A stretch of 64,000 nt of DNA from Rhabdaerophilum sp. SD176 (GTDB lineage Bacteria; Pseudomonadota; Alphaproteobacteria; Rhizobiales; Beijerinckiaceae). The DNA lies in assembly GCF_030143245.1 (NCBI RefSeq), contig NZ_JARJNS010000003.1, positions 310,001 to 374,000 on the forward strand. Direction: 5' to 3'. The notes beneath the pieces are model-generated. The model saw nothing but the letters and a program-made list of their open reading frames with translations, was not told the DNA's origin and did no database searches. Made by a program: the position numbers and the translations under genes. Below, in pieces: positions 7,760 to 21,826 of the stretch (positions are counted from its first letter, which is position 1; every line of letters begins with the position of its first letter).

Positions 7760-8083
7760 ATGGCCGAAATGAAGAGGACGACCCCCCCGAAGAAGAATGC
7801 CAGTCCGGCGCGTCCGCCGCTGGCTCTGAAGCCGCAGGCGCCCGAACCGGCCCGCACGCCGGAAGCCCTGGCGGCGATGGGTGATGGCGAACTGGCCTAT
7901 ATGCGCGCCTTCCGCGCCGCCGAGCTTCGCCACCTGTTTCCGCAGACCGAGAAAGTCCATCCGTCAGTGCAGCTTTTCGCGCTGTTCGCGGCCGATGGCT
8001 CCCCGCTCATGCTGGCCGACAGCCGGGAGCTGGTCATTTCCGGCGCCTGGCAGAACGATCTCGACATGGCGACGGTCCACTGA
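7760..8083 (+). CDS. DUF1150 family protein
   Basis: Small protein of 107 residues of the alphaproteobacterial DUF1150 family, which is commonly encoded next to Hsp20 genes, as here. The N-terminal 30 residues are basic and proline-rich (KKNASPARPPL). The conserved core runs from DGELAYMRAFRAAELRHLFP to LFALFAADGSPLMLADSRE and ends ISGAWQNDLDMATVH. The start at 7760 follows ACTGGAGG. Function is unknown; heat-shock association is inferred from position. The 210 bp before it hold a 7-bp inverted repeat (CCGGACC at 7589, GGTCCGG at 7616) but no clear terminator. Confidence 0.85.
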   Translation: MAEMKRTTPPKKNASPARPPLALKPQAPEPARTPEALAAMGDGELAYMRAFRAAELRHLFPQTEKVHPSVQLFALFAADGSPLMLADSRELVISGAWQNDLDMATVH

Positions 8084-8090
8084 ACCTCGG

Positions 8091-8888
8091 CTACCGCGCG
8101 CCAGCCAGCGCGCGGGCCATGTCCAGCGTGATCCGCTGGAGCGCGGCGATATCCTCATCGCGCGAGAGGCGATGATTCCCGTCGGGGATCACCGCCATCC
8201 GCACCTCCTCCTCGACCAGTTCCGCCATGAAGCGGCGGACATGCGCCAGCGGCACATCCGGGTCTTCGGCGCCCTGCAAGATATGGATCGGCACGCCGAA
8301 ACGCGCGCCCTTGCCGAGCAGCAGGTGGCGCCGTCCATCCTCGATCAGCGCCCGCGTGATCGGATAGGGCTCCGGCGAATAGGCCGAGGGCCGGTACCAC
8401 ACGCCCTCTTCCTCGATCTGCCGACGGATGGCCGGCGGGAACTGCGCCCACATCAGTGCTTCGGTGAAATCCACCGCCGGGGCGATCAGCACCAGCCCGC
8501 CGGGCGGACGACCTTCGGCCCCGAGGATCTCCGTTGCGCGGAGGGCGAGCCAGCCGCCCATGGACGAGCCCACAAGGATCGGCCGCTCGCCGCCGAATTG
8601 CCGGATCATCTGCAGGGAATCATCCAGCCAGAGCGAAAGCGTCGCCGAAGCGAAGTCCCCGCTGGATTCGCCATGCGCGGTATAGTCGAAGCGCAGCATG
8701 CCGAAACCCTCGGCCGCGGCGGCCTCTTCGAGCTTTTCCGCCTTGGTGGAGGTCATGTCCGAGCGGAAACCGCCCATCCAGATCAGGGTCGGCCGTCTTC
8801 CGGGCCGGAGGCGATAGGCCAGCCGGCGCGCCGGGAAGCCCGCTTCCGGGTTGCCCTCGACCTCGAACGATTGCACCGGCTGCTGCAT
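8091..8888 (-). CDS. Alpha/beta hydrolase (ABHD10-like serine esterase/thioesterase)
   Basis: Single-domain alpha/beta hydrolase of 265 residues. It has the nucleophile elbow GSSMGG with Ser109, a likely acid Asp209 (GAEDPDVP) and catalytic His239 (GNHRLS). The oxyanion strand reads IWMGGFRSDMTSTKA, and the overall pattern matches bacterial relatives of ABHD10, a mitochondrial acyl-protein thioesterase. It is convergent with the DUF1150 gene and divergent from the glycosyltransferase gene. Substrate unknown. Confidence 0.85.
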   Translation of the reverse strand: MQQPVQSFEVEGNPEAGFPARRLAYRLRPGRRPTLIWMGGFRSDMTSTKAEKLEEAAAAEGFGMLRFDYTAHGESSGDFASATLSLWLDDSLQMIRQFGGERPILVGSSMGGWLALRATEILGAEGRPPGGLVLIAPAVDFTEALMWAQFPPAIRRQIEEEGVWYRPSAYSPEPYPITRALIEDGRRHLLLGKGARFGVPIHILQGAEDPDVPLAHVRRFMAELVEEEVRMAVIPDGNHRLSRDEDIAALQRITLDMARALAGAR

Positions 8889-8998
8889 GTCTCTATGTCT
8901 CCCATGGCCGGTTTGCGCCGGCGCGATTCCCGGATGTTTGCGCAGATCCCGGCGCAGCAGTAAACATCCCCAGCCGGTTCCGAAAGCCCCGTTCCCCG

Positions 8999-10219
8999 AT
9001 GGTCTTTTCTGCCTCCCCCGCGAAGCCGCTTCTCGGCAGGACGATCCTCCAGATCATCCCCGATCTGAATGCCGGCGGTGCCGAACGCACGACGGTGGAT
9101 ATCGCCGAAGGCCTCTCGCAGGCCGGCGCGCGCGCGCTCGTCGCTACCGAGGGCGGCCGCCTGATTGGCGAATTGCAGACCAAGGGCGGCATCTGGGTGC
9201 CGTTTCCGGCCTCGACCAAGAACCCGCTCTCGATGGCGATGAATGTCGGCAAACTGGTGCGCCTCCTGCGCGAGGAGCGGGTGGAACTGGTCCATGCCCG
9301 GTCCCGCGCGCCGGCCTGGGTGGCCTATGCCGCCACGCGGGCGATGAAGATCGGTTTTGTCACGACGTATCATGGTGCCTATAACGGCAAGTCGGCGCCC
9401 AAGATCCTCTACAATTCCGTCATGGCCCGCGGCGACGTGGTGATTGCCAATTCGCATTTCACCGCCGAACTGATCCAGAAAACCCACCGGATCGAACCGC
9501 AAAGACTGCGTGTCATTCCGCGCGGCACGAATTTCGAGGCCTTCTCGCCTGACAGGATCGGCCCCGACCGTGTCGAGCGGATCCGGCGCGGATGGCTGGC
9601 CTCGCCGGATGACCGGATCGTCCTGCTGGCCGGCCGCCTCACTTCGTGGAAGGGGCAGAAGCTGCTGGTCGAGGCGGCGTCCCTGCTGCGCGAACGCGGC
9701 TATCGCGACGTGGTCTTCATTCTCGCCGGTGATCCGCAAGGCCGGGAGGGCTATGTCGCCGAGCTGGACGGCGAGATCGCGGGGCGGAATCTCGGCTCTG
9801 TCGTCCGCCGCGTCGGCCATGTCACCGACATGCCGGCCGCGCTCGCGGCCTCGGCTGTCGTCACCGTGCCCTCGACGGAGCCCGAAGCCTTCGGCCGTGT
9901 GGCGGTGGAGGCCCAGGCCATGGGCGTGCCGGTGGTTGTCTCCGATCTCGGCGCCGTACCGGAAACCGTGCTCGCCCCGCCGCAGGTACGGCCCGAACAG
10001 CGGACCGGATGGCGCGTGCCCGCCGGCGATGCTCCCGCTCTCGCCGAGGCGCTTGCGCTTGCGCTCGATCTCAAGCCCAGCGCCCGCGATGCGCTGGCCA
10101 CCCGCGCGCGCCGCCATGTCGAGCGGAATTTCTCGCTCGACCAGATGGTGGCGCAGACGCTCGACTGTTACATCGCGCTTCTTGAGGGCACGGTGGGCAA
10201 GGCCCTTCCTTCCCGTTGA
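8999..10219 (+). CDS. Glycosyltransferase family 4 (GT-B fold)
   Basis: Cytoplasmic GT-B glycosyltransferase of 406 residues, probably acting on surface polysaccharide or lipopolysaccharide. The N-terminal domain opens ILQIIPDLNAGGAERTTVDIA, as in GT4 enzymes; the C-terminal donor-sugar domain includes LLAGRLTSWKGQKLLVEAA and the EX7E-type segment EPEAFGRVAVEAQAMG near residue 305. There are no sugar-biosynthesis genes around it, so donor and acceptor are unknown. The ribosome-binding site at the chosen ATG is weak; the frame is open far upstream but the homology begins here. Confidence 0.88.
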   Translation: MVFSASPAKPLLGRTILQIIPDLNAGGAERTTVDIAEGLSQAGARALVATEGGRLIGELQTKGGIWVPFPASTKNPLSMAMNVGKLVRLLREERVELVHARSRAPAWVAYAATRAMKIGFVTTYHGAYNGKSAPKILYNSVMARGDVVIANSHFTAELIQKTHRIEPQRLRVIPRGTNFEAFSPDRIGPDRVERIRRGWLASPDDRIVLLAGRLTSWKGQKLLVEAASLLRERGYRDVVFILAGDPQGREGYVAELDGEIAGRNLGSVVRRVGHVTDMPAALAASAVVTVPSTEPEAFGRVAVEAQAMGVPVVVSDLGAVPETVLAPPQVRPEQRTGWRVPAGDAPALAEALALALDLKPSARDALATRARRHVERNFSLDQMVAQTLDCYIALLEGTVGKALPSR

Positions 10220-10308
10220 CTTTGTCCGCGAATGCGCTGATTTTCAGGCCGGTTTCGCGGATGGGGACATCCGGCGGCCACCATCCGCAATAGCCAAGGA
10301 GAAAGACC

Positions 10309-10848
10309 ATTCGCAGGCCTATGAGAAACGTTCCCCTTCCGGTGAAGGAAGGTCCGCGCATCAACCGGGATATCCGCATCCGGGAAGTCCAGGTGATCGA
10401 CGCCGATGGGTCCAACAAGGGGGTGCTCGCCGTGTTCGACGCGATCAAGCTCGCCGAGGACCAGGGGCTTGATCTCGTCGAGGTTTCGCCGAACGCGACG
10501 CCGCCGGTCTGCAAGATCATGGATTACGGCCGTTTCCGCTTCGCCGAGCAGAAGAAGGCCGCCGAGGCGCGCAAGAAGCAGAAGACCATTGAAATCAAGG
10601 AAATCAAGCTTCGCCCGGCCATCGATGATCATGATTACACCGTCAAGATGAAGGCGATGAAGGGCTTCTTCGAGGAAGGCAACAAGGTGAAGATCACCCT
10701 GCGCTTCCGCGGCCGTGAAATGGCGCATCAGGATATCGGCATGCGCGTGCTCGACCGGGTGAAGGCCGATACGGTCGATATCGCCAAGGTCGAGAACGAG
10801 CCGAGCTTCGAGGGTCGCCAGGTCGTCATGGTGCTGGCGCCGAAATAA
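10309..10848 (+). CDS. infC: Translation initiation factor IF-3, predicted ATT start codon
   Basis: IF-3 binds the 30S subunit, prevents 50S joining and proofreads the start codon. The 179-residue protein shows the N-domain ([20 protein letters not shown]), the lysine-rich linker ([24 protein letters not shown]) and the C-domain. I place the start at ATT 10309-10311 rather than the ATG at 10321, because AAGGAG ends seven bases before the ATT and the extra residues RRP match the usual alphaproteobacterial N-terminus. infC in many bacteria starts with a non-canonical codon that IF-3 itself discriminates against, giving autoregulation. It is the first gene of infC-rpmI-rplT-pheS-pheT. Confidence 0.93.
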
Positions 10849-10865
10849 GGCGCCGGTCGGCTGGC

Positions 10866-10882
10866 AGGGGGCAGGGCCCCCT
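10866..10882 (+). terminator. Hairpin after infC (weak terminator or attenuator)
   Basis: Seven-base perfect stem AGGGGGC/GCCCCCT with an AGG loop, 18 bases after the infC stop. The following TTGCACTTTTC is only a poor T tract, so partial termination or message protection is as likely as full termination. Confidence 0.5.
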
Positions 10883-10923
10883 TGCACTTTTCTCCGTCCT
10901 GGCGTATCAGCGCGCCTTCGTTC

Positions 10924-10959
10924 GAACCGCCCGGCTGATAAGGGCTGCCGTGGCGGTTC
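10924..10959 (+). promoter_or_regulatory. Strong hairpin in the infC-rpmI gap
   Basis: GAACCGCC (10924-10931) pairs perfectly with GGCGGTTC (10952-10959), and the stem continues as CGGC (10932-10935) with GCCG (10947-10950), leaving one unpaired T at 10951 and an 11-base loop. TTTCG follows. It may be an attenuator, an RNase processing site or a ribosomal-protein binding site controlling rpmI-rplT; sequence alone does not say which. Confidence 0.5.
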
Positions 10960-11038
10960 TTTCGCGTCGAGGATTTTCTCGGAAATCCGGTGACGTGCCG
11001 CGGCCCCCCGGGGTCGCTTCCTTCCTAAGGAGAGGCAA

Positions 11039-11239
11039 ATGCCCAAGCTGAAGACCAAATCCGGCGCCAAGAAGCGCTTCAAGATTACCGGAACGGGCAA
11101 GGTCAAGCACGCCCAGTCCGGCAAGCGCCACGGCATGATCAAGCGCACCAACAAGCAGATCCGCGATCATCGCGGCATGCGGGTGCTGTTCAAGACCGAC
11201 GGCGACAACATCAAGAAGTATTTCCTCCCGAACGGCTGA
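11039..11239 (+). CDS. rpmI: 50S ribosomal protein L35
   Basis: Highly basic 66-residue ribosomal protein L35 with the family pattern [20 protein letters not shown] and [12 protein letters not shown]. The start follows AAGGAGAGG. It lies in the standard infC-rpmI-rplT order; the 190-base gap from infC holds two hairpins described separately. Confidence 0.97.
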
Positions 11240-11245
11240 TCGGGA

Positions 11246-11289
11246 GCGTTTTCAAGCGAAGTGGACCCCGGTTCGCGTGAAGAAAACGC
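11246..11289. repeat. Rhizobiales-type dispersed palindromic repeat between rpmI and rplT
   Basis: GCGTTTTC (11246-11253) and GAAAACGC (11282-11289) form perfect outer arms, with inner GCGAA/TTCGC pairing (11256-11260 / 11272-11276), enclosing GTGGACCCCGG. I recognise the general form of this element (arms around a GAAGTGGA..CCGGTTCGCGTGAA core) from many Hyphomicrobiales intergenic regions. I saw only this one copy in the window. In the transcript it would be a stable hairpin between the two ribosomal protein genes. Confidence 0.65.
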
Positions 11290-11361
11290 GACCAGACTGA
11301 AACGATCCGAGCGCGACGCGCTCTCGCTGGCAAAAGCGATCAGCAAATCAGGAGTTGAACA

Positions 11362-11727
11362 ATGTCTCGTGTGAAGAGGGGCGTGACATCTCACGCCAAG
11401 CACAAGAAAGTCTTCAAGGCTGCCAAGGGCTTCTATGGCCGCCGCAAGAACACCATCCGCACCGCGAAGGCCGCCGTCGATCGCGCGATGCAATATGCGA
11501 CGCGTGACCGCCGCGCCAAGAAGCGTACGTTCCGCGCGCTCTGGATCCAGCGCATCAACGCCGCCGTGCGGGAATACGGCCTGACCTACAGCCGCTTCAT
11601 CGATGGCCTGGCGCGCGCCAACATCGTGATCGACCGCAAGGTCCTCTCCGACCTCGCCATCCGCGAGCCGGAATCCTTCAAGGCCATCGTCGACCAGGCC
11701 AAGGGTGCCCTGCCGGCCACCGCCTGA
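11362..11727 (+). CDS. rplT: 50S ribosomal protein L20
   Basis: Primary 23S rRNA-binding assembly protein of 121 residues. It has the basic extended N-terminus ([20 protein letters not shown], then [15 protein letters not shown]) and the globular C-domain ([32 protein letters not shown]). It follows AGGAG at a normal distance. In other bacteria L20 represses this operon by binding the message; no known leader pseudoknot is recognisable here. A strong terminator follows, so pheS is probably transcribed separately. Confidence 0.97.
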
Positions 11728-11754
11728 ATTGTCCGGCCACGGCCAGGCCTTCAC

Positions 11755-11782
11755 AACCGGCGCCCGCAGGCGCCGGTTTTTT
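11755..11782 (+). terminator. Intrinsic terminator after rplT
   Basis: Ten-base perfect stem AACCGGCGCC/GGCGCCGGTT (11755-11764 and 11769-11778) with a CGCA loop, followed by a T run to 11782. It marks the end of the infC-rpmI-rplT transcript before pheS. Confidence 0.9.
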
Positions 11783-11888
11783 GTTGCTGCCTTGCCGCGC
11801 CACCGGATTTTTGCCCTGTGCGTATCAGGATGCTTGACGCGCTTCCCCGCCGCATGACAAGCGAGGCGCGCAACAAGGGGTTCTCGGA

Positions 11889-12971
11889 ATGTCGGATCTG
11901 ACCTCACTGGAAAAGTCCCTCTCGGCGGAGATCGCCGCCGCCGCCTCGGAAGAGGCGCTGGAGGCCGTGCGGGTCTCCGCGCTTGGCAAGAAGGGCTCTG
12001 TTTCCGCGCTGCTGGCCACGTTGGGCTCGATGGCGCCGGAAGCCCGCAAGGAGGCCGGCGCCGCCATCAACGCCCTGAAGGACCGGGTGACCGAGGCCCT
12101 TGCTGCCCGCAAGGCCGTGCTGAAAGATGCCGCGCTTGATGCGCGCCTCGCCGCGGAGCGGGTCGATGTCACGTTGCCGGTGCTCGAAGCCGGGCTGGAA
12201 ACCGGCCGCATCCATCCGATCAGCCAGGTGCTGGACGAACTGACCGCGATTTTCGCCGATCTCGGTTTCGCCGTGGCGGAAGGGCCGGATGTCGAGAGCG
12301 ACGATTACAACTTCACGAAGCTCAACTTCCCGCCGCATCACCCCGCGCGGGAAATGCACGACACGTTCTTTTTCAACCCCGGCGAGAACGGCGAGCGCAA
12401 GCTTCTGCGCACCCATACCTCACCGGTTCAGGTCCGGACGATGCTGGCCCAGAAGCCGCCGATCCGCGTCATTTGCCCGGGCCGCACCTATCGCTGCGAT
12501 TCCGACCAGACCCATACCCCGATGTTCCATCAGGTCGAGGGGCTGGTCATCGACAAGTCGGCCAATCTCGGCCAGCTGAAATGGGTGCTCGAGGAATTCT
12601 GCAAGGCCTTCTTCGAGGTGCCGAGCGTCAAGATGCGCTTCCGCCCCTCCTTCTTCCCCTTCACCGAACCCTCGATGGAGGTGGATATCCAATGCTCGCG
12701 CAAGGGCGGCGAGATCCGCTTCGGCGAGGGCGAGGACTGGCTCGAGATCCTCGGCTGCGGCATGGTCCACCCGAATGTGCTGCGCAATTGCGGCCTCGAT
12801 CCGGATGCCGTGCAGGGCTATGCCTGGGGCATGGGAATCGACCGCATCGCCATGCTGAAATACGGCATGCCGGATTTGCGCCCCTTCTTCGAGGCCGATA
12901 TCCGCTGGCTCAGGCATTACGGCTTCCGCCCGCTCGACCTGCCGACTCTGGCCGGAGGGTTGAGCGCGTGA
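11889..12971 (+). CDS. pheS: Phenylalanine--tRNA ligase alpha subunit
   Basis: Catalytic subunit of the alpha2beta2 PheRS, a class II synthetase, 360 residues. The N-terminal coiled-coil tRNA-binding region covers about 1-90. The catalytic domain includes [46 protein letters not shown] (motif 2 region), the Phe-pocket segment [17 protein letters not shown] and the motif 3 stretch [16 protein letters not shown]. Its TGA stop overlaps the GTG start of the next gene (GTGA), which is an unknown gene rather than pheT. Confidence 0.97.
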
Positions 12972-13501
12972 GCCTCCAGGTCCTCATTGCATCACTTGCG
13001 GGTGTGGCGACGATCATTTCAGCGTTTTTCGCGTGGAAGAAATTTTCGTCCGATCGCTCAAGTCCAAAATTGTATTATAATGTAAAAAAGCACTCACACT
13101 ATCATAATCCAATCGACTTTGCGGATGTTTATATTTGGAGCAATTCTTTTAAGGTTGCAAGATTTTCATTAGAGGTGAATAGCAAGAGTGAAATTTCAGA
13201 ATTTTCAGTCCGTGTGCCAGAGGGTGTTTCTGTTACAAAAAAAGATGCATTGAGAGTCGAGTTTTCAATAAATCCAAATGCCAGTGGAGTGATAAATTTG
13301 TCGGGATTCAAAAATGATATTACTTTCGGAGGTTTTGGATCGGAGGAAATTCACGAATCATATCCAAAACATATATTCTATGGACAAGCAAAAAACATAA
13401 GGAATGCTGCCTTTAAAGAAGCTCTTGGCTGGGTATTTTTTATAGTTTTTGGTCTGTCCCTATACATCGCTGCTGCAATCTGGCCGAGTGCAAAACCATG
13501 A
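12968..13501 (+). CDS. Unknown AT-rich gene inserted between pheS and pheT; two-helix membrane protein
   Basis: I do not recognise this 177-residue protein. It starts at GTG 12968, overlapping the pheS stop as GTGA, and its stop overlaps the pheT start as ATGA. It has hydrophobic segments at about 4-22 ([18 protein letters not shown]) and 153-171 ([19 protein letters not shown]). Lysines or arginines at 24-25 and 142-150 suggest the ~120-residue middle faces the cytoplasm; that part is rich in alternating beta-type residues ([20 protein letters not shown]). Base use is foreign: 13081-13140 has 21 G/C in 60, against roughly 65% in the neighbours, with many AAA, ATA, TTA and AAT codons. Probably recently acquired. 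Confidence 0.8.
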
Positions 13502-15933
13502 AATTCACCCTGTCCTGGCTCAAGGAGCATCTCGAAACCGACGCGACGCTCGACCAGATCGTCGAGACCCTGACCCGCATCGGGCTGGAAGTGGAAAGCG
13601 TCGATGATCCGGGCAAGAAGCTCTCGGGCTTCACCATTGCCTATGTCATCTCGGCCGAGCAGCATCCGAATGCTGATCGCCTGCGCGTCTGCATGGTCGA
13701 GACAGGGCTCGGTGGCGGGCCGGTCCAGGTGGTCTGCGGCGCGCCGAATGCCCGCACCGGCATGAAGAGCGTCTTCTCGCCGCCCGGCACCTATATTCCC
13801 GGCAAGGACATCACGATCGGCAAGGGCGTGATCCGCGGGGTTGAATCCTCCGGCATGCTCTGCTCGGGCCGCGAACTCGAGATTTCCGAGGATCATGACG
13901 GCATTCTCGACCTGCCGGCCGATGCGCCGGTCGGGACCCGCTATGCCGAATGGGCCGGCCTGTCCGACCCGGTCATCGAGATCAACCTGACGCCCAACCG
14001 CCCCGATGCCACCGGCATCCACGGCATCGCGCGCGATCTCGCCGCCGCTGGCCTCGGCAAGCTCAGGGATGCCGGCATTCCCGCCATCAAGGGCGATGCC
14101 GCCTGCACCGTGCCGGTGACGCTGGATTTCGCCGGCGAGGATCGCGCCCTCTGCCCGGCTTTCGCCTTGCGCCTCGTACGCGGCGTGAAGAACGGCCCCT
14201 CGCCGGAATGGATGCAGAAGCGCCTGCGCGCCATCGGCCTCCGCCCGATCAACGCGCTGGTCGATATCACCAATTACATCACCTATGACCGCGGCCGCCC
14301 GCTGCACGTTTTCGATGCGGCCAAGGTCAAGGGCGCGCTGACCGTACGCCATGCCCGCGCCGGCGAGAGCATTCTCGCGCTCGATGGCAGGACCTATGCG
14401 CTCGAGCCTGGCATGGTTGTCATCGCCGATGATAACGGCCCCGAATCCATCGGCGGCATCATGGGCGGCGAACATTCCGGCTGCGATGATGCCACCACCG
14501 ATGTGCTGATCGAATCGGCGCTCTGGTCGCCGCTCAACATCGCACAAACCGGCCGCAAGCTCGGCATCAACACCGATGCCCGCTACCGGTTCGAGCGTGG
14601 GGTTGACCCCGCCTTCACCGTGCCGGGCCTTGAACTGGCGACAAAGCTGGTGGTCGATCTCTGCGGCGGTACGCCAAGCCAGATCAGCCTGACCGGTGCC
14701 GTGCCGGAAACCGAGCGGATCGTCGATTTCCCGGTCTCCGAAGTGAAGCGGCTCACCGGGCTCGACGTGCCCGTCTCCGAGATGAAGGCGATCCTTTCCG
14801 CACTTGGCTTCTGGTGCTCGGGGCAGGGTCCGGTGCTCAAAGTGGCCGTGCCCTCCTTCCGCCCGGATATCGAGGGCAAGACCGATCTCGTCGAGGAAAT
14901 CGTCCGCATCGTCGGTGTGGATTCGGTGCCGCTGGTCCCGATCCAGCGCGTCCATGAGGTGCACAAGCCCGTTTTGACCCCCCTTCAGGGCCGTGTGCGG
15001 CAGGCCAAGCGTGCGCTCGCCGTGCGCGGGCTTGTCGAGGCCGTGACCTGGTCCTTCGTGTCGAAGAAGGCGGCCACGCTTTTCGGCGGCGGCCAGCCGG
15101 CGCTGGCGCTTGCCAACCCGATTGCGGCCGATCTCTCCGACATGCGGCCCAGCCTGATGCCGGGCCTTGTAGCAGCAGCGCAGCGTAATGCCGATCAGGG
15201 CTATCCCGATGTCGCCCTGTTCGAGGTCGGCCAGATTTTCAGGGGCGATGGCGAGAAGGACCAGCGCTTCGCGGCAGCCGGCATCCGGCGCGGCCTCGCC
15301 CGGGCGGCCGGCGCGGGCCGGCACTGGACCGGCAGCAGCGAAGCGGATCTCTTCGACGTCAAGGGCGATGTGATGGCCCTGCTGGCGACACTCGGCGTGC
15401 CGACCGGCGGGCTGCAGGTCGTGGCGGCCGGGCAGGTCAATCCGGCACCGGACCATCTGCATCCCGGCCGTGCGGCGATCCTGCGCTTTGGGCCGAAAGA
15501 TGTTGTCGGCTGGTTCGGCGAGTTGCATCCGCGCCTTGTCGAGGCTTTGGGCGCGGAAGGCCGGCTGCAGGCTTTCGAGATCATCCTTGACGGGCTGCCC
15601 TATCCGAAAAAGAAGCCGACCAAGGTCAAGGCCAAGCTCGACCTGTCGGATCTCCAGCCGGTCAGCCGTGATTTTGCCTTCCTTGTGGATCAAAGCGTCG
15701 AGGCCGAGACGCTGCTCCGGCTCGCCCGTGGCATCGACAAGCCCTTGACGGAAAACGTCACGGTCTTCGATGTCTATGCCGGAAAGGGAATCGAGCCGGG
15801 CAAGGTCTCGATCGGCCTCAACGTGACGCTCCAGCCGCGCGAGAAAACGCTGACGGATGCGGAGATCGAGGCCTTTTCGAAGAAACTGGTGGCGGAAATC
15901 ACCGGAAAGACAGGCGCGACCTTGCGCGGGTGA
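13498..15933 (+). CDS. pheT: Phenylalanine--tRNA ligase beta subunit
   Basis: Beta subunit of PheRS, 811 residues, with tRNA-binding and Phe-tRNA editing functions. Domains in order: EMAP/Trbp-like OB fold (about 40-155, [16 protein letters not shown]), B3/B4 editing domain (about 210-390, [18 protein letters not shown] and [18 protein letters not shown]), B5 (about 400-475), the inactive synthetase-like fold (about 480-700) and a ferredoxin-like anticodon-binding domain (about 715-808, [15 protein letters not shown]). The ATG at 13498 overlaps the stop of the AT-rich upstream gene, so its translation is likely coupled to that gene. Confidence 0.97.
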
Positions 15934-15962
15934 GGTTTCGCCCGCGTTGAAGAGGTTCAAGA

Positions 15963-16322
15963 ATGGCAAGACGCCACGCTGCGTGTCCTATCCTGTTGGC
16001 AGGATGGGTCTTTCTGGGGGTCGGGTTCTTCGCCCGGCCGGCCCTTGCGGCCTGCGAGGGAATCTCCAATGCCTTCGCCTACAACGAATGCCTCGCCAAG
16101 CAGGCGCCGCAGCGCGGCCAGAGAGCGCCGCGTGTCACCTCCGGGGATCCGGAGGCCTCCGTCATCCACCGTCGGGGCCGCAATTCCCGGCGCGCGAACC
16201 CCGATGCCGGGCTGTCGGGCATCGGCGGCATTGAGATGACCCGGCGCAACGGCCGGACCAGCGCCGTCATCGATCCGTGGAGCGGCGTCCGCCCGGCCAC
16301 CCGCGGGAAGCGCCGGCGCTAG
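15963..16322 (+). CDS. Hypothetical secreted protein
   Basis: A 119-residue protein with a signal peptide (about 1-29, ending RPALA). The mature part begins ACEGISNAFAYNECLAKQ, containing two cysteines that could form a disulphide, and ends in a very basic tail (RPATRGKRRR). Similar short proteins with an AFAYN.CLAKQ segment occur in other Hyphomicrobiales without known function. GAAGAGG precedes the ATG. The last four bases overlap the convergent E1-like gene. Confidence 0.7.
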   Translation: MARRHAACPILLAGWVFLGVGFFARPALAACEGISNAFAYNECLAKQAPQRGQRAPRVTSGDPEASVIHRRGRNSRRANPDAGLSGIGGIEMTRRNGRTSAVIDPWSGVRPATRGKRRR

Positions 16323-17065
16323 GCCGCCCGCCCGTATTCGATCGTCTCGAACCGCATGTCGAGCGCATCGATCAGCAGCAGCTTGCCGACGAGCGGCGTT
16401 CCGAACGGCGTGATCTGCCGGATGACCTCGATCGCCTGGAGCGAGCCCACCATGCCGACCAGCGCGCCGAGCACGCCGGCTTCCGAGCAGGTGGGAATGC
16501 TGCCTGCCGGCGGCTTTTCGGGAAAGAGATCCGTGTAGCGCGGATTGAGAACCCCGTCCGGCCCGGCCTCCCAGGGGCGCAGAACCGTGATCGAGCCATG
16601 CATCTCGTTGACGGCGGCATGGACCAGCGGCTTCCGCGCCGCCTCGCAGGCCGAGGCGAGCAGGTAGCGCGTGTCGAAATTGTCCGATCCATCGGCGATC
16701 ACGTCATAGCCGGCGATGAGAGCCGCCGCGTTGCCGGAATCGAGCCGGTCCCTGTGCAGGTCGAGCATGACGCCGGGGTCCAGCCGATGAAGCGCGTCGG
16801 CCGCACTCTCGACCTTGGGCCGGCCGAGATCCGGCGTGCCATGGATCACCTGTCGCTGCAGGTTCGAGAGCGAGACGACATCGTCATCCACGATCCCGAT
16901 CCGGCCCACGCCCGCTGCGGCGAGATAGAGCAGCAGTGGCGTGCCCAGCCCGCCGGCCCCGACCACCAGAACGCTGGCGCGACGCAGGCGCTGCTGGCCC
17001 GGCCCGCCGATAGGGCGCAGCACGATATGGCGGGCGAAACGGGTCAGGTCGTCGGTGGAGAGCAT
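16319..17065 (-). CDS. ThiF/MoeB/HesA-family E1-like adenylyltransferase
   Basis: ATP-dependent enzyme that adenylates the C-terminal glycine of a small sulphur-carrier protein (MoaD- or ThiS-like), 248 residues. It has the nucleotide motif GAGGLG (36-41), the conserved NLQRQVIHGTPDLGRPK segment, the Mg-binding DGSDNFDTRYL and the later PTCSEAGVLGALVGMVGSLQA. The usual CxxC pairs that bind zinc in MoeB and ThiF are absent: the first site reads NPRYTDLFPE and the protein ends without a CPVCG-like motif. Whether it serves molybdopterin or thiamine synthesis cannot be told; no moa or thi genes are nearby. Confidence 0.85.
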   Translation of the reverse strand: MLSTDDLTRFARHIVLRPIGGPGQQRLRRASVLVVGAGGLGTPLLLYLAAAGVGRIGIVDDDVVSLSNLQRQVIHGTPDLGRPKVESAADALHRLDPGVMLDLHRDRLDSGNAAALIAGYDVIADGSDNFDTRYLLASACEAARKPLVHAAVNEMHGSITVLRPWEAGPDGVLNPRYTDLFPEKPPAGSIPTCSEAGVLGALVGMVGSLQAIEVIRQITPFGTPLVGKLLLIDALDMRFETIEYGRAA

Positions 17066-17227
17066 CTTTGGCGTTCTCGCGGGAGTGGCTTGCGTGCCGT
17101 CGGGTTCCGGTTATAGGACCTCTCCAGCGCCTTTTCGAGCCGGTGTCGATGCCGCGCGTGAAAATTGGGCCGGTGAGGGGAATGGAGTTCCGGGCTCGCA
17201 GGGTCCGGACGTTTGGAAGAAGAACCG

Positions 17228-18457
17228 ATGGCGAAATCCGATATCAAGCGCGTTGTCCTGGCCTATTCCGGAGGCCTCGACACCTCCGTGATCCTGAAAT
17301 GGCTCCAGACCACCTATGGCTGCGAGGTGGTGACCTTCACGGCCGATCTCGGCCAGGGCGAGGAGCTGGACCCGGCGCGCAAGAAGGCCGAATTGCTGGG
17401 CATCAAGCCCGAGCATATCTTCATCGATGACCTCCGCGAGGAATTCACCCGCGACTTCGTTTTCCCGATGTTCCGCATGAACGCGCTCTACGAGGGCCAG
17501 TACCTTCTCGGGACCTCGATCGCGCGGCCGCTCATCGCCAAGCGCCAGATCGAGATCGCCCGCCAGGTCGGCGCCGACGCCGTCTGCCACGGCGCCACCG
17601 GCAAAGGCAACGATCAGGTCCGCTTCGAGCTGACCTATTACGCACTCGAGCCGAACATCAAGATCATCGCCCCCTGGCGTGAATGGGACCTGGCCAGCCG
17701 CACCCGGCTGATCGCCTTTGCCGAGCAGCACCAGATCCCGATCGCCAAGGACAAGTATGGCGAGGCACCGTTCTCGGTCGATGCGAACCTGCTGCATTCT
17801 TCCTCGGAAGGGAAAGTGCTCGAGGATCCGGCCATCGAGGCGCCGGAAATGGTCTATATGCGCACCATCGCGCCCGAGGCCGCGCCGGACAAGGCGACGA
17901 TCATCACCATCGATTTCGAGAAGGGCGATGCCGTGGCCATTGACGGCGTGGCCATGTCGCCCGCGACGCTGCTGACGCGCCTGAACGAACTCGGCAAGGA
18001 GAACGGCATCGGCCGGCTCGACCTCGTCGAGAACCGCTTCGTCGGCATGAAGTCGCGCGGGGTCTACGAGACGCCCGGCGGCACGATCCTCCATGCCGCT
18101 CATCGCGGCATCGAATCGATCACGCTCGACCGCGAGGCGATGCATCTCAAGGAATCGCTGATGCCGCGCTATGCGGAGCTGGTCTATTACGGCTTCTGGT
18201 TCACGCCCGAGCGCGAGATGATCCAGGCCCTGTGCGACAGGAGCCAGGAAAACGTCACCGGCCGCGTCACGATGAAGCTCTACAAGGGCAATGCGACGGT
18301 GATTGGTCGCGAAAGCCCGTATTCCCTGTATGATCAGGAACTCGTGACTTTCGAGGAAGGCGCGGTGGCCTATGATCATCGGGATGCGCAGGGCTTCATC
18401 AAGCTCAACGCTTTGCGGCTGCGGACCCTGGCGATGCGCAAGGCCCGCACCAGCTGA
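17228..18457 (+). CDS. argG: Argininosuccinate synthase
   Basis: Joins citrulline and aspartate with ATP in arginine biosynthesis; 409 residues. The PP-loop [14 protein letters not shown] lies at the N-terminus (about 12-25), followed by [20 protein letters not shown], the citrulline-binding [17 protein letters not shown], and [18 protein letters not shown]. The start at 17228 is five codons inside the longest frame; GAAGAAGAA precedes it and the family starts here. No other arginine gene is adjacent. Confidence 0.97.
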
Positions 18458-18514
18458 GGCCCGGCGGGGCGGCGTGTTTTCCCGCTGGCACGGCACGGAC
18501 CGGAGGGCGGATCG

Positions 18515-19864
18515 ATGCGCATGCGGCTGAAAGTTCTGGCCATCGTTTTTGTCGGCGTGGCGATCGCGGCGGCAGCAGCCTACGGGCTGTTCGCGCCGCG
18601 CCTCCTCCGGATTGCGGTGGGGCCGCTCGGCGGGCAGGATATCCGCATCGTTGTGGCCTTCCTGCAATCGCTCCAGCGTGAGAAGGCCTCGCTGCGCCTC
18701 AAGCTCGTGCTGACGGAAGGCGCTTCCGCCAGCGGTGCGCTGCTGGAGAGCGGCAAGGCGGACCTGGCGGTGATCCGCTCGGATATCACCGTGCCGGAAA
18801 AGGCGGCGACGGTGGCGATCTTCCGGCGCGAAGCGGTCTATTTCGTCACCAAGCCCGGCTCGAAGATCACCAAGATCGGCGATCTCAAGGGCAAGGCAAT
18901 CGGCTCCATTGCACCACGCCCGGCCAATGACCGGATGCTTGAGAGCATCCTCACATATTACGGAATCGCCGCTTCCGAGGTCGATGTCATCCGCGGAAGC
19001 CAGGCCGAGATCACCCAGGCCATGCAGGCCGGCAAGCTCGATGCGTTCTTCTCGGTCGCGCCGGTCGCCGACCGGATGAGCCGCGCGGCCTTCCTCGCTT
19101 TTCCGAAGGTCGACGGCGAGGCGCCCGGGTTTCTGCCGATCGCCGGGGCCGAGGCGATTGCGGAGCAGGTCCCGGCCTATGACACGGTCGAACTGGTGCG
19201 CGGGGTCTTCGGCGGCGATCCCGCACAGCCGGCGGAGGAAACCACCACGCTCGCGGCGACCCATCGCCTCGTGGCCCGCCGCACACTGGATGAATCGGTC
19301 GTCAGCGAATTGACCCGCCTTCTCTTCGCGCTCCGGCTGTCCATCGCCGCCGAGGCCCCCGCCGCCAACCAGATCGAGTTGCCTTCCGCCGAGGACCGGG
19401 GCGCCAAGCTTCCCGTCCATCCCGGCACGATTGCCTATATCGAAGGCGAGACGAAGACCTTCTTCGAGCGTTATGGCGACTGGTTCTATCTCGGCGTGAT
19501 GGGGTTCTCGCTGGTCGGGTCGGTCGCCGCGGCGCTCTTCTCCCGGGTCACCAACAACCGCACCGGCGTCCACCCGGTGACGGATGACGAGTTGCACCGC
19601 ATGGTCGTGCTGATCGACCAGCTTCGCCAGGCCGTCACGGCCGAGGCGCTTCCCGCCCTCGAAGCCGAGGCCCGCACGCTCCATCACATGCTGCTGCATT
19701 CCGTCGCGGAAGCCGCGCAGGATTCGGACCGGATCGCCACGATCCGCTTTCTCGTCGACGAGTTGCGCCTGGCCTTGGCGGATGCCCAGCAGCGGATCCG
19801 CGAGGCGCCGGGCGAGCGCAGCGAGCCGCGCCGGCCACCCGGTCTGACGGCAATTTCGACCTGA
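18515..19864 (+). CDS. TAXI-type TRAP transporter substrate-binding protein, membrane-anchored at both ends
   Basis: Substrate-binding protein of the TAXI family, 449 residues. Residues 8-28 form an uncleaved-looking signal anchor, then the binding domain ([20 protein letters not shown] through about residue 300, with [17 protein letters not shown] and [20 protein letters not shown]). A second membrane helix lies at about 325-345 ([20 protein letters not shown]), followed by about 100 residues of predicted helical cytoplasmic tail. No TRAP permease gene is adjacent, so it may work with a distant permease or as a sensor. It is 57 bases downstream of argG. Confidence 0.8.
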
Positions 19865-19954
19865 ACCGGTGGAATCGCCGCGCGCCGGCTTGCTCTTGCA
19901 GCGCAAAAAGGATACTGCGCTGCAACACCGTAGACTGCAACGCCCTGCCGCCAC

Positions 19955-19974
19955 CGTCCGGGACCCACCGGACG
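19955..19974. terminator. Possible hairpin terminator upstream of typA
   Basis: CGTCCGG (19955-19961) and CCGGACG (19968-19974) are perfect arms around GACCCA; CCGGGCGCTTTTT follows ten bases later. It could end the TAXI-protein transcript or act in the typA leader. The T run is offset from the stem, so the call is weak. Confidence 0.35.
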
Positions 19975-19999
19975 TCCGGGCGCTTTTTGGAACAAACCC

Positions 20000-21826
<1,827 letters not shown>

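Follow-up and report, generated by a model that had tools for sequence, protein, structure and literature searches.

The essential two-gene operon pheS-pheT of Rhabdaerophilum sp. SD176 is interrupted, in the 64,000-nt stretch of DNA analysed here (the window), by an AT-rich gene that begins within the stop codon of pheS and ends within the start codon of pheT. The question raised by this locus is how such a gene came to stand between two core genes and how it is translated there. New genes need transcription and translation signals to survive, and a junction with a core-gene ribosome site on its 5' side and a stop on its 3' side, occupied by different genes in many species, would be a natural experiment on the expression and retention of orphan genes.

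The orphan gene and its surroundings

The complete 177-codon gene described in the sequence-only reading was found on the sequence with the same coordinates, the same frame and the same GTGA and ATGA overlaps (Table 1), and is referred to here as the orphan gene. Its strong AT-richness between GC-rich neighbours was likewise confirmed. By hand count 21 of the 60 bases in 13081-13140 are G or C, and the gene as a whole has 39% G+C, compared with a window mean of 65.9% and third-position values (GC3) of 0.84 for pheS and 0.82 for pheT. Sliding composition over the whole window gave 10 of 1274 300-nt segments below 50% G+C, all 10 of them overlapping the orphan gene. The G+C of its three codon positions is 0.44, 0.39 and 0.34, an order typical for a real gene from an AT-rich genome. 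A chance reading frame is unlikely, the frame being fully open over 177 codons in 2 of 20000 sequences simulated with the same composition (first-order Markov); the longest open run in the remaining five frames across the gene is at most 73 codons. Some frames in GC-rich DNA that overlap both neighbours can be spurious, but this is hardly so for the AT-rich orphan.

A mobile element as carrier was set aside, since repeats were found at neither orphan junction: the only repeats in 12850-13650 are an imperfect direct repeat of 13 nt (13416/13615) and a palindrome (12858-12877), both away from the junctions. No Rfam family matched at the gathering score in 10000-16500, and no integrase or transposase was recognised by eye in the list of open reading frames of 8000-20000.

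Table 1. Features of the pheS-pheT region, in window coordinates. The infC-like, rpmI and rplT genes are presumed identities, recognised by eye from the sequence.
Feature	Position	Strand	Basis or remark
infC-like ORF (translation initiation factor IF-3), 5' neighbour	10321..10848	+	ORF list
rpmI (ribosomal protein L35), control junction	11039..11239	+	translation
rplT (ribosomal protein L20), control junction	11362..11727	+	ORF list
pheS, 360 aa, C-terminus ...LAGGLSA	11889..12971	+	ORF list; PheS matches in 17/17 genus genomes
GGAGGG from the codons of the PheS C-terminal Gly-Gly, likely Shine-Dalgarno site of the orphan	12954..12959	+	8 nt 5' of GTG; -10.0 kcal/mol
orphan gene, 177 aa, predicted two-helix membrane protein, middle domain predicted to face the cytoplasm	12968..13501	+	ORF list, structure model, hydropathy
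GTGA overlap, orphan start (GTG 12968-12970) within pheS stop (TGA 12969-12971)	12968..12971	+	sequence
predicted first membrane helix, residues 3-28	12974..13051	+	structure model and hydropathy
AT-rich core, 36% G+C	13010..13470	.	sliding composition
predicted second membrane helix, residues 145-171	13400..13480	+	structure model and hydropathy
ATGA overlap, orphan stop (TGA 13499-13501) within pheT start (ATG at 13498)	13498..13501	+	no good Shine-Dalgarno site 5' of pheT
pheT, 811 aa	13498..15933	+	ORF list; PheT matches in 17/17 genus genomes

Searches for relatives and predicted protein

The middle domain had not been recognised in the sequence-only reading, and the searches agree: the orphan protein matched no family in Pfam, PADLOC (0 families) or NCBIfam, and nothing in PHROGs below E 0.2 (best E 0.2 and 0.26). 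The best sequence match in the PDB (E 0.08) was taken as chance. The possibility, named in the sequence-only reading, that the same gene occurs in all close relatives was pursued, and no counterpart of the orphan was found in any of the 16 other genomes of the genus, two of which are less than 85% complete. Sixty further genomes drawn from genus, family and order yielded no convincing relative; 12 of them gave matches (best E 0.059-0.67). None of 77 pattern matches in genome contigs and none of 6 in viral contigs was confirmed, and plasmids and phages yielded no relative. In a class-wide sample of 384 other genomes four matches at E <= 0.02 were all rejected: L120 contains five stops, the best alignment of L121 lies on the opposite strand with a stop in the first frame, that of L122 spans 7 residues only, and L123 falls within a 975-codon frame that encodes a different protein. 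A phylum-wide sample of 397 other genomes gave one match at E <= 0.01 (E 0.001, within a 4161-codon frame) and no convincing relative; the samples of these searches overlap one another. Proteins from the gaps of other loci (one set of gap ORFs) did not match the orphan either, the best value being E 0.63. Composition and absence from relatives together point to a horizontal origin of the gene; no donor was found in the searched collections.

Hydropathy revealed one clear hydrophobic segment at each end of the orphan protein, and inspection of charges found basic residues (KK..R and K..R..K) flanking the middle domain on its side. This charge distribution predicts that the middle domain faces the cytoplasm. 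The most likely product is a small protein of the inner membrane that has its two ends outside and the middle domain inside the cell, a topology and location that we infer from sequence. AlphaFold2 run on the single sequence gave a mean pLDDT of 48 for the whole protein and 43 for residues 28-146 alone, both too poor for a fold search. The two helices proposed earlier are thus predicted by both hydropathy and the model, whereas the beta-rich character of the domain between them is predicted weakly, strands being drawn at low confidence in residues 31-140 (block means of pLDDT 27-42).

The pheS-pheT junction in the genus

PheS and PheT were matched in all 17 genomes of the genus and the genes are linked in 10, with gaps of 10 to 1490 bp. 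The gap is 526 bp in the SD176 genome and 16 (G012), 16 (G015), 15 (G001) and 10 bp (G009) in four others, and the remaining five carry other inserts with gaps of 991 (G013), 1003 (G011), 1490 (G014), 1031 (G005) and 940 bp (G008). The junction of G005 contains a DUF6173 gene and a second reading frame without a Pfam match; that of G008 contains DUF4160, DUF2442 and a 143-aa frame without a match. In 5 of the 15 decidable genomes the two genes are apart, G010 and G016 being left out because their contigs are broken at the junction. They lie about 46 kb apart in G002, about 319 kb apart on opposite strands in G007, and on different contigs in G003, G004 and G006, where 7.0-7.6 kb 3' of pheS are without pheT. 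These five genomes belong to one subclade of the genus (L029-L038) that has lost the adjacency of pheS and pheT; pheS is followed by a glycosyltransferase-like gene in G003 and G007 and elsewhere in the subclade by other genes.

The SD176 genome forms one strongly supported clade with G012, G015, G013 and G011 in both the pheS and the pheT tree. The pheS and pheT stretches of these four sisters are 91-94% identical to the window, and the PheS and PheT proteins of the closest genomes of the genus are about 98% identical to those of SD176. The junction holds the orphan in SD176, is empty (16 bp) in G012 and G015, and holds a glycosyltransferase-like gene of 306 and 315 aa in G013 and G011; thus three states occur among five close species. 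The glycosyltransferase-like gene, named by eye, overlaps the pheS stop in G013 and G011, and its product in G013 has no Pfam match. It also adjoins pheS in G003 and G007 and follows an ASCH gene in G014; it was not found in SD176 or in 11 other genomes of the genus. As a look for a recombination tract in the flanks, identity to the sisters was taken in 100-nt bins along pheS and pheT; it varies from bin to bin, with no clear step towards any single sister. The orphan may have displaced the glycosyltransferase-like gene or entered an empty junction; the five species form an unresolved fork in both trees, which fits either order of events.

The junction across the order and outside it

A joined PheS-PheT query was run against even samples of the order Hyphomicrobiales (75 genomes searched) and of the class (70 searched); genomes without any match (1/75 and 1/70) are outside the denominators. 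One partial second PheS match (G712, contig 160) was left out of the order rows, as were G000 and G017 (own family) and the partial second matches of G477 and G389 from the class rows. Among 74 genomes of the order the gap was below 150 bp in 39 and 150-5000 bp in 29, SD176 included, and in the remaining 6 the genes were distant from each other or split between strands or contigs. Among 67 genomes of the class outside the order the corresponding numbers were 61 and 2, with one pair far apart, two on different contigs and one incomplete. Excluding SD176, inserts were present in 28/73 genomes of the order vs 2/67 outside it (Fisher p 1.7e-7), a difference to which the abundance of small genomes in the outside sample is a possible contributor. 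At least one sense-strand reading frame was taken for a gene in 25 of these 28 inserts (by longest ORFs); by the same measure no gene was seen in the gaps of G711 (162 bp), G749 (174 bp) and G046 (628 bp).

The set of 80 named loci comprised 79 with a pheS stop and 71 with pheT in reach, the gap being below 150 bp in 32 and larger in 39. For the counts of inserts and translation signals over pooled loci, duplicates (L016-L019, L022) and two loci outside the order (L153, L154) were dropped; L052 and L039, in which pheS runs off the contig, were also left out. Single frames of at least 80 aa overlap both neighbours in 15 of 72 inserts, the orphan included. The G+C of the 71 other inserts differs from that of their flanks by -0.012 on average (SD 0.039), and the orphan with -0.24 is the extreme, which bears out the foreign composition ascribed to it. 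The proposal that the junction is a landing site for variable, unrelated genes of low G+C held in its first part, with inserts in 29/74 genomes of the order vs 2/67 outside, and failed in its second, most inserts being close to their flanks in composition.

Pfam families found in 40 tested cargo proteins, one of them (L047) from a locus whose pheS has no pheT within reach, are DUF4160, DUF2442, DUF6173, SH3_3, Glyco_transf_21, DUF559, Phd/YefM antitoxin, ParE toxin, GFA, HEPN, GIY-YIG, ASCH, YetF, Cation_efflux, LysE, cytochrome c', Protoglobin with MCP, methyltransferase, AraC and cupin. No Pfam match up to E 0.01 was found for 14 of the 40, and the matches of L055 and L134 stayed under the curated threshold. 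ASCH and DUF559 genes at further loci (L072, L125, L140, L083, L127, L132 and others) were named by eye. The recurrence of cargo families in distant genera could reflect shared descent or repeated entry.

Several cargo genes recur in recognisable arrangements. A DUF4160-DUF2442 pair lies directly 3' of pheS in two families of the order (L026 2246-3187, L128 770-1280), trailed both times by a small frame with a similar-looking start (by eye), and looks like a co-moving unit. Proteins of about 95-109 and 153-156 aa lie between pheS and pheT in three genera (L105 1815-2574, L126 501-1285, L135 526-1271), with a HEPN match in L126 and HEPN-like by eye in L105 and L135, a pairing that suggests a two-gene system. 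ASCH genes recur at the junction in distant genera, by Pfam in L024 and L133 and by eye in L140, L125, L072 and L115; that of L133 is fused to an exonuclease-like domain, and ASCH may be an old junction resident or a repeated guest. Similar-looking membrane proteins of about 180 aa are found at the junction in three genomes of the order (L143 513-1067, L147, L152 610-1155), those of L143 and L152 without a Pfam match. Outside the order, the insert of L153 (507-1223, G324) encodes a protein of 239 aa that is hydrophobic over an N-terminal segment and matches nothing in Pfam; it ends in the pheT start.

Control junctions

The gap at the rpmI-rplT junction, about 1.7 kb upstream, does not exceed 151 bp in any of the 68 measurable named loci, a different sample from the order sample. 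The genes rplT and pheS lie no more than 220 bp apart in 42 of 72 named loci and 467-4702 bp apart in the other 30, and the spacing between infC and rpmI varies from 199 to 3729 bp (47 loci). The glyQ-glyS pair (2/75 genomes of the order without any match; second partial matches of G017 and G733 left out) had 150-5000 bp between its genes in 30 of 73 genomes and was adjacent in 23, apart in 19 and incomplete in one. Of the 19 pairs that are apart, 5 are separated by more than 5 kb, 9 are split between contigs, 4 lie on different strands and one, that of G058, is in reverse order. Interruption of pheST (29/74) and of glyQ-glyS (30/73) does not differ (Fisher p 0.87). The pheS-pheT junction is variable, but it is not unique in the order, since glyQ-glyS is interrupted as often; the earlier suggestion of a landing site therefore stands as far as variability is concerned and falls as regards a peculiarity of pheST. 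The glyQ-glyS pair of SD176 is itself split by two small reading frames (L155 1731-2549 = G000:C18:411230-412048), by eye one with a signal-peptide-like start and one resembling a CDGSH iron-sulphur protein.

Translation signals

The PheS C-terminus is AGGLS followed by one residue, or a close variant, in most loci displayed. Its Gly-Gly codons read GGAGGG in SD176 (-10.0 kcal/mol) vs GGCGGC in the empty sisters G012 and G015 (-5.0 and -5.8), a synonymous difference. Where a gene overlaps the pheS stop, G011 has GGGGGG (-10.1) and G013 only GGTGGG (-5.6), and the duplex is weak in G003 and G007 (-3.8 and -2.8). A strong Shine-Dalgarno core, defined as GGAG, GAGG or GGGGG, was scored in 120 loci after L041, on the same contig as L036, was dropped; the order sample contributed its insert-bearing genomes only, so that these counts and those for the pheT site are enriched for inserts. 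The core was present at the PheS C-terminal codons in 12 of 12 loci in which pheT starts in the pheS stop, in 22 of 27 in which another gene (at least 80 aa) starts there, and in 24 of 81 without any start in the pheS stop. Duplex energies differed from those of the loci without overlap with p 6e-6 for pheT starts and p 2e-5 for other genes (Mann-Whitney), values that ignore kinship in a set where Bradyrhizobium is heavily represented. The Gly-Gly codons are thus associated with overlapping starts; G013, G003 and G007 are among the 5 of 27 overlapping-gene loci that lack the core.

At the other end of the orphan, the ribosome site of pheT has -2.5 kcal/mol vs -10.3 in both empty sisters. Median values (36 loci each) were -8.3 for empty junctions, -4.1 for overlapping inserts and -2.95 for non-overlapping inserts. 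Because non-overlapping inserts have weak sites too, the weak pheT site is compatible with coupling and is no proof of it. The pheT start reads [A/G]TGAA[A/G] in 108 of 108 loci examined, and therefore an upstream frame can end there without design. The neat junctions that had been read as pointing to a landing site accordingly exist as described and come partly free. The two overlaps and the weak pheT site suggest that the orphan is coupled with pheS and pheT, and pheT may depend on translation of the orphan.

Discussion

The explanation that we consider reasonably probable is that a horizontally acquired, AT-rich orphan gene docked by way of translation signals at a pheS-pheT junction that exchanges genes, with pheT reached by re-initiation. 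The orphan would have arrived horizontally and settled between pheS and pheT, at a junction where in the Hyphomicrobiales one gene or a small group at a time would repeatedly be gained, lost or swapped. The PheS C-terminal AGGLS would, through its codons, supply the Shine-Dalgarno site, GGAGGG here, 8 nt before the start in the pheS stop, and because pheT begins with ATGAA an incoming frame could end in the pheT start. The orphan would then be translated together with pheS, and pheT, which has no good ribosome site of its own here, would be reached by re-initiation after the orphan.

A docking-site reading that goes further is tentative and rather doubtful. According to it, the Gly-Gly codons of a conserved AGGLS peptide toggle synonymously between GGAGG (on) and GGCGG (off) with the presence of a gene start in the pheS stop, and a docked gene ending in the pheT start makes pheT need its frame, so that selection on pheT would shield even a useless or costly passenger from loss by frameshift or nonsense mutation. 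If true, such a lock would keep orphan genes in operons even when they do nothing for the host. A simple prediction is that pheT translation depends on the passenger gene. The junction would also be a catalogue of small genes, many of them uncharacterised, at one address.

The main competitor, to which we give a little less than an even chance, is a loose operon boundary, where selection for adjacency is weak in the Hyphomicrobiales and genes drift in and out of a site without special property. The interruption of glyQ-glyS in 30 of 73 genomes, with the genes further apart or rearranged in 19 more, the separation of pheS and pheT in 5/15 decidable genomes of the genus and in 6/74 of the order, and the wide rplT-pheS spacing in 30/72 named loci are all consistent with it. 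The intact rpmI-rplT junction close by (68/68), the start overlaps with matching Gly-Gly codons and the double overlaps in 15/72 inserts argue for something more than looseness. Both explanations are compatible, and the loose boundary may be the larger part of the favoured one. Artefact of assembly or contamination, which a gene known from one genome only might suggest, is extremely improbable, given that the orphan lies within a 604768-bp contig (G000:C18) of a 3.96-Mb assembly that is 99.29% complete and 0% contaminated, and overlaps both neighbours to the base.

As to function, the guess of a membrane-bound effector of stress response, immunity or phage defence, carried as defence cargo and expressed constitutively with translation genes, is quite unlikely to be right. 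A helix-domain-helix architecture resembles membrane effectors in general, and the junction does receive cargo of toxin-antitoxin or nuclease type (Phd/YefM with ParE in L109, HEPN in L126, GIY-YIG in L130, DUF559 in L077) and DUF4160-DUF2442 pairs (L026, L128). The guess nevertheless gained no support from the orphan itself, which has no partner gene beside it and no significant match in PADLOC or the other libraries. Other cargo is metabolic or concerned with transport (glycosyltransferase, GFA, LysE, cation efflux, cytochrome c', YetF), and 10 cargo proteins of other loci gave one weak match of 50 residues in PADLOC (DpdF, E 0.0031). An accessory of phenylalanyl-tRNA synthetase (PheRS) specific to this lineage, tethering the synthetase or phenylalanyl-tRNA to the membrane, would fit the operon position and the predicted cytoplasmic domain, and is very improbable: the gene was found in none of the 16 further genus genomes, with PheS and PheT still about 98% identical in the nearest ones, and other species hold unrelated genes in its place. 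The orphan is accordingly not conserved with PheRS, and the earlier thought that it might prove a known accessory of the enzyme was not borne out.

The favoured explanation, acquisition and docking at an exchanging junction, touches on several known phenomena. Literature searches on insertion at pheS/pheT and on intervening genes of pheST returned no description of the junction in the titles and abstract openings among the matches listed, most subscription literature lying outside their scope. Mosaic operons with displacement of genes in situ were reportedly described by Omelchenko et al. in 2003, the displaced gene generally being an orthologue. Such operons share with pheS-pheT a foreign gene inside an otherwise vertically inherited operon, whereas here unrelated genes alternate at one position. 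The life-cycle of operons set out by Price et al. in 2006 is said to include the insertion of orphan genes. New or orphan genes entering existing operons are common to that account and to this locus, which differs in that one junction is used repeatedly and the signals would come from core genes. Close parallels are the loci of Bradyrhizobium, Bosea, Mesorhizobium and others in which a gene X occupies the same place, at several of them overlapping both neighbours in the same way; X encodes a DUF559 protein, an ASCH protein (by eye in Bradyrhizobium), a family 21 glycosyltransferase or a GFA enzyme. Those genes have a G+C near that of their flanks and belong to known families, whereas the orphan is AT-rich and without a known family.

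Hotspots of horizontal transfer without mobile elements have been described between core genes (Oliveira et al. 2017, PMC5635113); like pheS-pheT, they show accessory genes turning over fast while the two core genes on either side stay fixed. The accessory content of pheS-pheT differs among relatives (three states in five sister species), and neither integrase, transposase, tRNA nor terminal repeats were found at the site by eye, with Rfam or by repeat search. Two control junctions served for comparison with the genome at large, rpmI-rplT with 0/68 gaps above 151 bp and glyQ-glyS with 30/73 interrupted. The pheS-pheT junction differs from those hotspots in lying inside an essential two-gene operon, in receiving mostly inserts of one or two genes and in allowing overlap of the frames on both sides.
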